DNA from: Acidimicrobiaceae bacterium
Lineage (GTDB): Bacteria; Actinomycetota; Acidimicrobiia; Acidimicrobiales; Bog-793
DNA: 33,243 nucleotides
NCBI GenBank assembly: GCA_003159795.1
Contig: PLPK01000039.1
Span: forward strand, 19,586 to 52,828
Direction: 5' to 3'
Shown: in pieces, positions 7,327 through 26,496 of the stretch
Layout of the letters: every line of letters begins with the position of its first letter
Position numbering within the stretch: position 1 is the stretch's first letter
Notes under the pieces: generated by a model
Databases searched by the model: none
What the model was told of the DNA's origin: nothing
Seen by the model: the letters and a program-made list of their open reading frames with translations, nothing else
Program-made: the position numbers and the translations under genes

Positions 7327-8046
7327 TCAGTCCTCGGTGGGCGCCGCGGGGATCACGGCGGGGGGCTGCACGAGCCCCGTGAAGAACGGGCCGAACTTCC
7401 CGTAGCGCGCGGACGCTTCGTCGTATCGCATCGCGTAGACGCAGGACTTGATGTCGTCGAACGTCCTGGCGAAGAGCGTCACGCCCCACTCCCAGTCGTC
7501 CAGCCCGCTCGAACCGGTGACGAGCTGGATGACGCGGCCCCGGAAGGTGCTGCCCAGCTTGCCGTGGTTCATCATCATCCGCAGCCGCTCGTCGTAGGGC
7601 AGGCGGTACCAGTTGTCGTCACCCTCCCGGCGGCGTGACATCGGGTAGAAGCAGAAGGCGGGCAGCCCCTCCGGCGGGAGCTTCGGGTGCAGGCGCGCCT
7701 GCTTCATCTCGGCGGAAACGCGTTTCGCGTACTCGGAGACCTCGGTGAGCGAGACGTACGAGTACCGGGGCAGGCAACCGGCGTGGGCGAGTTCGGTCTG
7801 GAGCTGTCGTAGGCGCCCGAACGAGGGGCCGAGCGCGAGTACGCCAAGATCGGCCTTGTGTCCGATGACCTCCACGGTGACGACCTCGTAGCCGTCGGCG
7901 CGGCAACGCCGCAGGGCGGACTCGGTGGCGTGCCCGTCGGCCGAGAGGGTGTCGCAGAACAGGTGGAGCGCCGCCCACCCGGGGGTTTGCCCGGTTTCGG
8001 GGGGGTCGGTCCCCTCGAATTCGGCGGGCGGGGTGGGACTCGTCAC
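7327..8046 (-). CDS. hemQ: Coproheme decarboxylase HemQ (chlorite dismutase family)
   Basis: FCFYPMSRRREGDDNWYRLPYDERLRMMMNHGKLGSTFRGRVIQLVTGSSGLDDWEWGVTLFA is characteristic. Confidence 0.92.
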   Translation of the reverse strand: MTSPTPPAEFEGTDPPETGQTPGWAALHLFCDTLSADGHATESALRRCRADGYEVVTVEVIGHKADLGVLALGPSFGRLRQLQTELAHAGCLPRYSYVSLTEVSEYAKRVSAEMKQARLHPKLPPEGLPAFCFYPMSRRREGDDNWYRLPYDERLRMMMNHGKLGSTFRGRVIQLVTGSSGLDDWEWGVTLFARTFDDIKSCVYAMRYDEASARYGKFGPFFTGLVQPPAVIPAAPTED

Positions 8047-9898: not shown

Positions 9899-10174
9899 TC
9901 AGCCGCCGGAGATCGCCGGGACGACCGAGAGCGTCTGGCCGTCCTGGACGGGCGTGTCCAGCCCGTCGAGGAACCGGACGTCGCGGTCGGCGAGGAAGAC
10001 GTTGACGAACCGGCGCAGCTGGCCGGTTTCGTCGACGATCCGTGCTTTCAGGCCGGGGTGGTGGGCTTCGAGGTCGTCGAGGGCCTCGCCCACCGTCGAG
10101 GCCTCCACCACGACCTCGCGCTTGCCGCCGGTGAGGGGCCGCAGCTGGGAAGGGATTCGGACGACGATGCTCAC
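9899..10174 (-). CDS. MoaD/ThiS-family ubiquitin-like (sulfur carrier-like) protein
   Basis: VSIVVRIPSQLRPLTGGKREVVVEASTVGEALDDLEAHHPGLKARIVDETGQLRRFVNVFLADRDVRFLDGLDTPVQDGQTLSVVPAISGG*; C-terminal GG; GTGA overlap with the upstream thrC-like stop. Confidence 0.88.
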   Translation of the reverse strand: MSIVVRIPSQLRPLTGGKREVVVEASTVGEALDDLEAHHPGLKARIVDETGQLRRFVNVFLADRDVRFLDGLDTPVQDGQTLSVVPAISGG

Positions 10175-11418: not shown

Positions 11419-11680
11419 AGCTTCCTCCTCATCGATCGGGCATTGGCACCTGGTGGCGAGTGGTGAACACTCGGAACTGGTTGCCGCGGCGTCTTCGGGC
11501 CCGTCCCTCAGCCGCTCTGGATGATGGGTGCAAGTCTGGTCGGCGGGTCCCGACAAGTCAAAATGGCCCGTCGTTGCTCGCTACCTGGGACGCGGCGAAG
11601 ATGGTCGGTGTGACGGCCCTTTCCGACGTGCTTCCCGGGGTCGGTCCCGTGTCGGGAGATTGCGGCGAGGCGCCCGGATC

Positions 11681-13072
11681 GTGAGCGATCTCGTCGTCGT
11701 CGCGACCCGGGGACCGTTCGCGCTCCGCCTCGAGGCGGGCGAGGTGGTGGCCGGTCGCGCCGCCGGCGGGCTCGCGCCAAGCCTCGCCGCGGCGCTCGAG
11801 GGACGGCGTGCCCTCTGGATCGCCGCCGCGGCGTCCCGCGACGAGCGGGAAATCGCGGCGCGCGGCCTGCCGATCCCGGCACCCGAGGGTCTCACCGTCC
11901 GACTCGTCGTGGTACCCGACGAGATCGCCGCCGCTCACCGGCTGATTGCCAACGGCACGTTGTGGTTCCTCCACCACGGGCTGTTCGACAGGGCACATCG
12001 GCCGACGGTCGACCGCCGCTGGCACGAGGCATGGGAGCGCTACCGCGCCTACAACGCGCTGTTTGGCGATGAGATCGCGCGGCTCGCGCCGGCCTCGGCG
12101 ACGGTCGTCATCAACGACTACCAGCTCTCACTCGTCGGCGGCCGCCTCGCCGAGCTGCGTCCGGATCTCGCGACGGTCCATTTCACCCACACGCCGTTCT
12201 GTGTCCCGGAGGAACTGCGGACGCTTCCGAGCGACGTCGCGGCCGAGCTCGTCGGGTCGATCGCGTCGTGCGGTGCCGCCGGGTTCCACACCGAACGCTG
12301 GGCCGGCAACTTCCGGCGCTGCGCCGGCGAGTACCTGGCCGACGAGCCGAGGACCCTTGTCTCCCCGCTCGGAGTCGACCCGCGGCGGCTCGCCCGGGAG
12401 TCGGCCTCGCCGGGCGTCGAGGCCGCGCGCGCCAGGCTCTCCGCGGCCGTCGACGGTCGGCGCATCGTCTTCCGCAGCGACCGGTTGGAGCTGGCGAAGA
12501 ACATCGTGCGGGGCTTCGCGGCCTTCGGGGAGCTGCTCGAGGCGGAGCCGGGCTGGCGAGATTCCGTTGTCTTTCTCGCTCACCTCTACCCGTCGCGGGA
12601 GGAGCTCCCCGAATACCTCGCCTACCGCAACGAGGTGGAGCGCGCGGCCACGCGCCTGAACGAACGCTTCGGAAAGCCGGGCCGCCTACCGGTCATCCTC
12701 GAGATCGCCGACGACCACGACGCCTCCCTCGCCGCGCTGAGCTCGTACGACGTGCTCCTCGTCAACGCCCTGCGCGACGGGATGAACCTCGTCGCGAAGG
12801 AGGGCGCGGTGCTGAACACGCGGGACGGCGTGTTGTGTCTCAGCAAGGAGGTCGGCGCCTTCGAAGCGCTCGGCGAGGCGGCAGTAGCCGTCGAGCCGTT
12901 TGACATCGCGGGGACGGCCCGGGCGATACGGGAGGCGCTGGAGATGCCGGCCTCCGACCGCCACGCCCGAGCACGACGGCTCGCTGAGCTCGCGGCGCTC
13001 CACCCGCCAGCGGAGTGGCTCGAGGGCGTGGTCGCCGAGGCGCGGCCCGGCAGACGGGCGAGCACGAGCTAG
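11681..13072 (+). CDS. otsA: Trehalose-6-phosphate synthase (GT20)
   Basis: VVINDYQLSLV, VHFTHTPFCVPEELRTLP, GAAGFHTERWAGNF, FRSDRLELAKNIVRGFAAFGELLE, LLVNALRDGMNLVAKEGAVLN. Confidence 0.9.
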   Translation: MSDLVVVATRGPFALRLEAGEVVAGRAAGGLAPSLAAALEGRRALWIAAAASRDEREIAARGLPIPAPEGLTVRLVVVPDEIAAAHRLIANGTLWFLHHGLFDRAHRPTVDRRWHEAWERYRAYNALFGDEIARLAPASATVVINDYQLSLVGGRLAELRPDLATVHFTHTPFCVPEELRTLPSDVAAELVGSIASCGAAGFHTERWAGNFRRCAGEYLADEPRTLVSPLGVDPRRLARESASPGVEAARARLSAAVDGRRIVFRSDRLELAKNIVRGFAAFGELLEAEPGWRDSVVFLAHLYPSREELPEYLAYRNEVERAATRLNERFGKPGRLPVILEIADDHDASLAALSSYDVLLVNALRDGMNLVAKEGAVLNTRDGVLCLSKEVGAFEALGEAAVAVEPFDIAGTARAIREALEMPASDRHARARRLAELAALHPPAEWLEGVVAEARPGRRASTS

Positions 13073-13089: not shown

Positions 13090-13893
13090 TTAGCTGGCCG
13101 GGGAAGCCCGCTTGGCGAGTTCGTCGAGGAAGCCGAGCGCGCCGGCCGGCCCCTCGACGACGAAGTCAGCGCTGGCGATGAGGGCCTCGGGCGCCTCGGG
13201 GCTCGTCACCGCGACGCGCACGCCCGCGAAGTGGCGGGACTGGGCGAGTGTGTCGACCGCCGTGAACGCCGGGATGTCGCCGACGTCATCGCCGAGGACG
13301 CACCCGGCCGAACAAGCCGCGAGCAGCGACGTGACGACGGACCCCTTGTCGTTAGCGACCGGAAGGACGAGCTCGATCGCCCGCCTGCCCTGCCGGATGG
13401 CGAGGCCGTGGCCTTCGGCGATCTCGTGGGCGAGCTCGATCGCGGCCGGTGCCGCCTCCGGGGCCTGGCGCCAGTGGAGGGTGAGCGCGAGCCCCTTGTC
13501 CTCGACGAAGGCGCCCGTGGGGACGCGGGCATGGGCCTCGCGGATCGCCGCGGCGACCACCCCTGCGTAGTCGTCGACGAGCGGGTCGTAGGCGATCGAG
13601 CCGTCGGGCTCGAGGTGTTCGAGGCCGTAGTGCCCGTAGACCCCGAGACGCGCGAGGGCGGGCCCGATCCCGAGGCGCTCGACGAGAAAGGCGACCGGCC
13701 GGCCCGAAACGACGGCGACGACGCCGAAACGTGCCGTCAGGCGCGCGAGCACGTCGATGGCACCGGGGAGTGGTGGCGCCTCGTTGGGGTTCGGGACGAT
13801 CTCCGCAAGCGTGCCGTCGTAGTCGATGATGACCCCGGTCGTGGACGGCTTCGTGGACAGAAGCGCCAGTGCCCGCTCGACGGCCGGGTTCAG
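13090..13893 (-). CDS. otsB: Trehalose-6-phosphate phosphatase (HAD); probable CTG start
   Basis: Reading upstream of the tracked ORF gives LNPAVERALALLSTKPSTTGVIIDYDGTLAEIVPNPNEAPPLPGAIDVLARLTARFGVVAVVSGRPV; DxDGTL is the HAD nucleophile motif. No ATG/GTG/TTG precedes it after the in-frame upstream stop. Confidence 0.85.
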   Translation of the reverse strand: MNPAVERALALLSTKPSTTGVIIDYDGTLAEIVPNPNEAPPLPGAIDVLARLTARFGVVAVVSGRPVAFLVERLGIGPALARLGVYGHYGLEHLEPDGSIAYDPLVDDYAGVVAAAIREAHARVPTGAFVEDKGLALTLHWRQAPEAAPAAIELAHEIAEGHGLAIRQGRRAIELVLPVANDKGSVVTSLLAACSAGCVLGDDVGDIPAFTAVDTLAQSRHFAGVRVAVTSPEAPEALIASADFVVEGPAGALGFLDELAKRASPAS

Positions 13894-14156
13894 TGCGGTC
13901 GACGTTGACGGGGGGCTTCGGCGAAGAACACGGCGCGCCGACGTTCGACGCGGCGGCGCCTCATGCGGTGAACGACGAGCGGGTCATACGCGGCGGCATC
14001 GTCGGAGTCGGCGAGCGCCGAGACGATCGCGTAGTACCGCGCCGGGGAGATGTCGAGCCGGGCACGTATCGCGTCCCGTTTGCTCGATTTGTCAGACAGC
14101 GTCCACCACTCGCGCTCGAAATCGAGCACCGCGCGCTCGAGTGATGTCAGCGACAT
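13890..14156 (-). CDS. DUF3263 domain-containing protein
   Basis: MSLTSLERAVLDFEREWWTLSDKSSKRDAIRARLDISPARYYAIVSALADSDDAAAYDPLVVHRMRRRRVERRR. Confidence 0.8.
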   Translation of the reverse strand: MSLTSLERAVLDFEREWWTLSDKSSKRDAIRARLDISPARYYAIVSALADSDDAAAYDPLVVHRMRRRRVERRRAVFFAEAPRQRRPH

Positions 14157-24805: not shown

Positions 24806-26496
24806 CAGAAGAACTTCCTGCTGAGGAGCTGCTCGACGATTGGTCCGAGCGAGACGGCCGGGAAGAAAGTGAGCGCGCCGACGATGAGGATCACGCCGAG
24901 AAGCAAGCCGGTGAACATCGGCGTGTCGGTCTTGAAAGTTCCCACCGAGGCGGGGACGGCCTGCTTGGCGGCGAGCACGCCCGCCATGGCGAGGCACGGG
25001 ATCATGACCACGAACCGGCCAAGCAGCATCGCGATGCCCCCGGCCACGTTGTAGAAGGCCGTGTTGGCGTTCAGGCCCGCGAACGCTGAGCCGTTGTTAT
25101 TCGCCATCGAGGTGAAGGCGTAGAGGATCTCCGTGAATCCGTGTGGACCGTGGTTGAGCGGCCCGACACGGCCCGCGTGGATCGACACCGCGATGCCCGT
25201 CAGCATGAGCACGACGATCGGCATGATGAGCACGCCGAGCGCGGCGAGCTTCACCTCCTTGGACTGGATCTTTTTACCGAGGAACTCGGGGGTCCGCCCG
25301 ACCATGAGTCCGCCGATGAAGACGGTGATGATGGCGAAGAGCAGGATCGTGTAGAGCCCGCTCCCGGTGCCCCCAGGGCTCACCTCGCCGAGCATCATGC
25401 CCGTGAGCACCGTGAAGCCCCCGATCGGCGTGAGCGAATCGTTTGCCGCGTCGACGGAGCCGGTCGAGGTCTGCGTCGAGGCGACGTTGTAGAAGATCGA
25501 GTCGGAGACGCCGAACCGGACCTCCTTGCCCTCGACGTTCCCACCTGGTTGGAAGGTGAGGCCGGCCTTCGCGATCGCCGGGTTCGTTCCGTGCTCGGCG
25601 ATCTCGCCCATCGCCACCCAGGCGCCGAACAGGATGATCATCGCGGCGACCACGGAGACGCCCTGGCGGAAGCTGCCGACCATCTTGCCGAAGGTGTAGG
25701 TGAGGGCGAAGGGGATCGCGAGCAGCAGCACGATCGAGAGGAAGTTCGTGAACGCCGTCGGGTTCTCGAAGGGGGTCGCGCCGTTGGCGTTGTAGGTTCC
25801 CCCGCCGTTCGTCCCGAGTTGCTTGATGGCCTCCTGAGAGCCGAACGGCCCGCGTGGGATGACCTGGGTGACGTGGTTCAGGGCGTCGTGGATCGTTACC
25901 GGCCCGGCGAAGGTCTGGATGGCCCCCTGGCCGATGAAGATGACGGCCGCGACGAGCGAGATCGGCAGGAGCACGTAGACGACACCGCGCACGAGGTCGA
26001 CCCAGAAGTTGCCGATCGTCGGCGAGCCGCGGCGGGCGAAGCCGCGGACGAGAGCGATGGCGACGGCGATGCCCACCGACGCCGAGGCGAAGTTCTGGAC
26101 GGCGAGTGCGCCCATCTGGGATAGGTACGACATCGTCGACTCGCCGGAGTAGGCCTGCCAGTTCGTGTTGGTGAGGAACGAGATCGCCGTGTTCCACGAC
26201 AGCGCGGGCCCGACCGCGCCGAGGTGCTGTGGGTTGAGCGGTAGCGATCCCTGCAGGCGGAGCATCCCGTAGACGACGAGGATCGCGACGGCGGAGTAGG
26301 AGATGACCGACCCGGCGTAGCGCTGCCAGCTCTGTTCGACCTCGGGGTCGACGCCGATGAGCCGGTAGATCGGTCCCTCGACGAAGCGCAGGTACCTGAC
26401 GCGTCCCTCGTAGACGGCGGCGAGGTACGAGCCGAGGAACCGCCAGATCAGGATCATGACGACGGCGAAGATGACGAGCGTCCATGTCAGGTTCAC
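24805..26496 (-). CDS. kdpA: K+-transporting ATPase subunit A
   Basis: Full-length; [42 protein letters not shown] selectivity-filter regions. Confidence 0.97.

Follow-up and report, generated by a model that had tools for sequence, protein, structure and literature searches.

A CTG codon in a stop-start overlap as the probable start of the trehalose-6-phosphate phosphatase gene otsB in Acidimicrobiales

Poor start codons can be retained for a long time at a single gene, as is the case for the AUU codon of infC, a weak conserved start that limits output. The otsB gene described here would resemble infC in this respect, with the difference that no autoregulatory logic is known for otsB and that its low output is only inferred. 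Termination-reinitiation, with coupling established for overlaps of the ATGA type (PMC6728339), takes place at ATGA and GTGA overlaps (PMC6728339, PMC10666635, PMC12548453), and the otsB junction shares with these systems a four-base overlap in the -1 register, co-directional genes and a TGA that is shared with an NTG codon. In contrast to them, the otsB start would be CTG, and no Shine-Dalgarno sequence, which is usual but not obligatory at such overlaps, accompanies it in the window. A word search found no mention of CTG in PMC6728339 or of CUG in PMC12548453, and a study of reinitiation at non-canonical codons (PMC4648390) was set aside as it concerns eukaryotic ribosomes.

In genetic code table 11, bacterial CUG starts are read as formyl-methionine like other NTG codons, and the same would hold for otsB. 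CUG accounts for 0.024% of bacterial starts and its output in E. coli is 0.86% of that of AUG, both figures as cited in PMC11497404, and mycobacterial reporters showed no enrichment of it as a start (PMC4633059); this low activity and the reporter failure count against a CTG start. As a rule, CTG starts are uncommon and short-lived in evolution, with four switches to CUG among some 69,000 ancestral starts in 36 genome groups, and they are usually sporadic (PMC5622118), whereas the otsB CTG has been kept across several genera. CTG starts are known, as are stop-start overlaps, and it is the lineage-conserved CTG version that is unusual. In the literature searched, the coverage of which was incomplete, no case of a CTG conserved between genera at a single gene was found, and searches for CTG starts in Streptomyces and for conserved bacterial CUG starts returned nothing closer. 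The protein itself does not differ from the known OtsB/trehalose-phosphatase HAD family (TIGR00685; PDB 5gvx, 6upb) in its family assignment, catalytic residues or length; the start alone is odd.

The junction of otsB with the DUF3263 gene

The window, a stretch of 33,243 nucleotides from the genome of a soil actinobacterium of the Acidimicrobiaceae, carries otsB on the minus strand at 13090-13893 (267 aa when read from CTG) and, directly upstream on the same strand, a DUF3263 gene at 13890-14156 (88 aa from ATG 14156; PF11662, E 6.4e-22). The minus strand near the otsB start reads ...CGACCGCACTGAACCCGG..., and the minus-strand letters around 13890 are GACCGCACTGAACCC. The DUF3263 gene ends in CAC TGA, its stop lying at 13892-13890. 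At the same place, the codons of the otsB frame are GCA CTG AAC, with CTG at 13893-13891, so that the two co-directional genes overlap by the four bases CTGA (13893-13890). The nearest upstream stop in the otsB frame is a TGA at 13986-13984, and from there down to a GTG at 13752-13750 the frame contains no ATG, GTG or TTG; no standard start is found for 47 codons of otsB. This GTG encodes residue 48, and a start there would drop D24 and D26 of the catalytic HAD motif DYDGTL (codons D24-Y25-D26 at 13824-13816). A sequence-only reading had described the CTG that overlaps the DUF3263 TGA, the lack of standard starts between the in-frame TGA and GTG 13752, and the loss of the catalytic aspartate from a product begun at the first standard codon, and all of this is exact by coordinates and frames. 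The overlaps with standard starts to which it referred elsewhere in the window were also located, as GTGA at 10173 and as CTGATG, with ATG as the start, at 24807 and 22747. No Shine-Dalgarno motif (GGAG, GAGG, AGGA or AAGG) was identified in the 20 bases before the window CTG.

The frame read from CTG matches Trehalose_PPase (PF02358) with an E value of 4.8e-26 and 91.8 bits against a cut-off of 27, and TIGR00685 (T6PP) with 116.3 bits against a cut-off of 68.05. The HAD residues D24, D26, S63, K183 and GDD 201-203 are invariant across 37 sequences. A product begun at GTG 13752 remains recognisable as a family member, but its match sets in at profile position 28-34, past the nucleophile motif, and the first part of both profiles is lost. 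An AlphaFold2 model of the 267-aa product has a pLDDT of 95.9 (96 for residues 1-10), with a helix at 3-13, a strand at 19-23 and high confidence from the first residues, and the OtsB N-terminus is therefore predicted to be foldable from residue 1.

Conservation of the junction in Acidimicrobiales

The family of the window was represented by 35 genomes from 20 genera of the order Acidimicrobiales. DUF3263 was found in 27 of these genomes, and in 20 it immediately precedes otsB. Comparison of the orthologous junctions, suggested in the sequence-only reading as a check, identified CTGA in ten of the 20 genomes with adjacent genes, from seven genera (that of the window, g2, g9, g11, g13, g16 and g20), GTGA in two (G007, G018) and TTGA in one (G023), all in the same -1 register; ATGA was not found at this site for the DUF3263-otsB pair. 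As the four-base NTGA register recurs in 13 of the 20 genomes, the overlap is more than chance, and its first base varies as it would in a start codon. Three further genomes (G003, G004, G021) have a GTG or ATG start a few bases past the stop, and the remaining four constitute genus g3. Most other relatives have an additional gene, about 600 bases long or longer, between DUF3263 and otsB, which then starts with ATG or GTG at approximately the same distance from the catalytic aspartate. Orthologues with ATG, GTG or TTG mostly begin 20-30 codons before this residue, and the window CTG, the sole conserved in-frame NTG upstream of it, lies at -23; the position of the start is therefore a common one and only the codon is odd.

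Between the junction and the catalytic aspartate, five genera have no usable ATG, GTG or TTG, as seen in the window, in g9 and g11, and in each of the three genomes of g16 and the four of g3, and CTG is there without an alternative standard start that would spare the domain. The only such codon in G024 (g13) and G019 (g20) is a GTG 3-4 codons before the aspartate, and GTGs that could serve as a start are present in G001 and G012. The start in g16 is less sure, because the 22 codons that follow CTG show no codon-position bias.

In the four g3 genomes the overlap has been lost: otsB lies in another frame, about 30 bases past the DUF3263 stop, and no standard start occurs between that stop and the aspartate. 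All four nevertheless keep a CTG 22-23 codons before the catalytic aspartate, with GAGG at -12/-13, eight or nine bases upstream of the CTG; a motif of the Shine-Dalgarno type was also noted in L009. Substitutions between the g3 genomes favour third positions after the CTG and not before it, although the counts are small. The suggestion that CTG is the otsB start is thus strengthened both by the CTGA junction in seven genera and by g3, where CTG is retained in the absence of the overlap. A junction at which CTG is kept between genera, and stays with a Shine-Dalgarno-like sequence of its own after loss of the overlap, provides a natural test of whether reinitiating ribosomes are less selective about the start codon.

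In the otsB tree, the CTG genomes of the family fall into one group of 16 sequences with moderate support (82, drawn open), which also includes G001 and the two g4 genomes. Outside the family, CTGA is the sole otsB start candidate in five scattered Acidimicrobiales genomes (L038, L045, L134, L184, L195), and because these lie elsewhere on the tree, the CTG-only label must change about eight times over the tree as a whole. The upstream gene is DUF3263 in L195 and another gene in the four other lineages, by Pfam LytR_C in both L134 and L184, the two tested for it, which suggests a repeated origin of the CTGA-only otsB; as single genomes, these five carry less weight than the family group.

Several minor observations were made at these loci. 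In L177 (2880-3046), otsB has neither an in-frame ATG, GTG or TTG nor a CTGA overlap, and the only NTG codons before the aspartate are CTGs at -16, -11 and -3. Five sequences titled Bifidobacterium breve or Acidobacteria (L162, L188, L191, L203, L168) carry an otsB that groups with Acidimicrobiales, and their titles look wrong. In Streptomyces and Actinacidiphila (L192, L205, L206), DUF3263 is directly upstream of otsB, with an ATG start at -32 codons, and judging from the arrangement of these Streptomycetaceae loci the DUF3263-otsB neighbourhood may be older than the order.

NTGA junctions at other genes

Other junctions were scanned with a simple codon-usage score in sampled stretches, comprising 374 kb of the genome of the window and 390 kb of eight relatives. 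In the former, 32 NTGA junctions with coding on both sides were identified (13 GTGA, 8 ATGA and 11 CTGA), and ten of the 11 CTGA junctions have a standard start within -6 to +12 codons, otsB being the exception. In the eight relatives, two CTGA junctions without a near standard start were found among 57 junctions. DnaG was rejected as a second case of a CTGA start, since codon 26 is an ATG and the zinc-finger match sets in just behind it, at residue 30; the frame of the second candidate from the relatives is doubtful, having no Pfam match. Within the sampled stretches (about 89 junctions in nine genomes), otsB is thus almost the only gene with CTG as its sole start candidate, and the overlap starts of other genes in the scan are nearly all ATG or GTG. 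A genome-wide use of CTG was rejected as an explanation, since no second solid case was found in the sampled stretches of this genome and the eight relatives. For instance, a PP-loop-like ORF at 7329 on the minus strand of the window (CTGACCGTG) has a GTG two codons past its CTGA junction, which illustrates how, in this genome, a standard start is usually close at hand at such junctions.

The C of the junction is not by itself a sign of selection, since no other base stands before TGA as often: C precedes TGA in 44 of the 81 TGA-ended ORFs of the genome of the window, and at this share ten C among 13 junctions have a P of about 0.085. Selection for C at the junction is therefore unsupported.

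Possible modes of otsB translation

We consider it probable that otsB is translated from CTG 13893 by termination-reinitiation after DUF3263. The grounds for this proposal are the absence of alternatives, the constant register, the g3 genomes and the contrast with other genes. Ribosomes that end DUF3263 at TGA 13892-13890 would restart one base back at the overlapping CTG, which would be decoded as formyl-methionine. As no recognisable Shine-Dalgarno sequence is present at the window junction, it is proposed that a ribosome already brought to the site by termination would stand in for it, so that even a weak start codon would suffice. Phosphatase output would then probably be low and coupled to DUF3263, and a low-output enzyme could tolerate the poor activity of CUG. 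Reinitiation could relax the demand on the start codon, with a possible consequence for the dose of OtsB.

Initiation at another non-standard codon further downstream (CTG 13869 or 13860, ATC 13830 or 13827) or from a leaderless mRNA appears unlikely. All four codons are in the otsB frame, some trehalose-phosphate phosphatases begin very close to the motif (the profile match to PDB 1u02 sets in at residue 3 of that protein), and the first 22 codons of g16 look unconstrained. However, these codons are not common to the relatives, unlike the junction CTG, and a start at 13869 or 13860 would cut the confidently predicted helix; as for a leaderless mRNA, CTG failed as a leaderless start in mycobacteria (PMC4633059).

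A programmed -1 frameshift shortly before DUF3263 ends, which would yield a DUF3263-OtsB fusion and leave CTG with no role as a start, is distinctly unlikely, even though the otsB frame is open back to 13986, the -1 register is constant in 13 genomes and the base before TGA follows background composition. No slippery heptamer was found before the stop in the window, and none is shared in the last 60 bases, as 13 of the 15 CTGA loci have none and the two matches in the other loci are unrelated. Furthermore, relatives have GTGA or TTGA at the same junction, the same CTGA occurs behind the unrelated LytR_C gene, and g3 breaks the register yet keeps CTG. Gene decay or a sequence error, by which the true start was lost or misread, is highly improbable despite the draft assembly of 86 contigs from which the window comes, since CTGA is present in independent assemblies of seven genera, the catalytic residues are intact and invariant, and otsB is a single-copy gene in this genome.

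Returning to a CTG start reached by reinitiation, a broader and tentative suggestion is that otsB of Acidimicrobiales has repeatedly and for long been kept on a poor CTG fed by ribosomes terminating upstream, with the phosphatase held low and tied to DUF3263 (nucleoid-associated-like) or LytR_C. If this were true, termination-reinitiation would lower the demand on the start codon enough for CTG to be a stable choice, and such genes would be mis-annotated wherever gene callers accept only ATG, GTG and TTG. In this clade, callers so limited would cut off the catalytic aspartates or put the start of the gene in the wrong place, a systematic annotation error.

The literature searched contained almost nothing on DUF3263. 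The window DUF3263 protein has a weak match (65.9 bits, below the cut-off of 160) to the NCBIfam model of the mycobacterial nucleoid-associated protein NapA, and may be a DNA-binding partner whose gene lies close to otsB in much of the order. A trehalose-6-phosphate synthase gene (11528-13072, plus strand; Glyco_transf_20, E 1.2e-73) is convergent with otsB, with 17 bases between the ends of the two genes, and because of this orientation the two trehalose pathway genes do not belong to one operon here.
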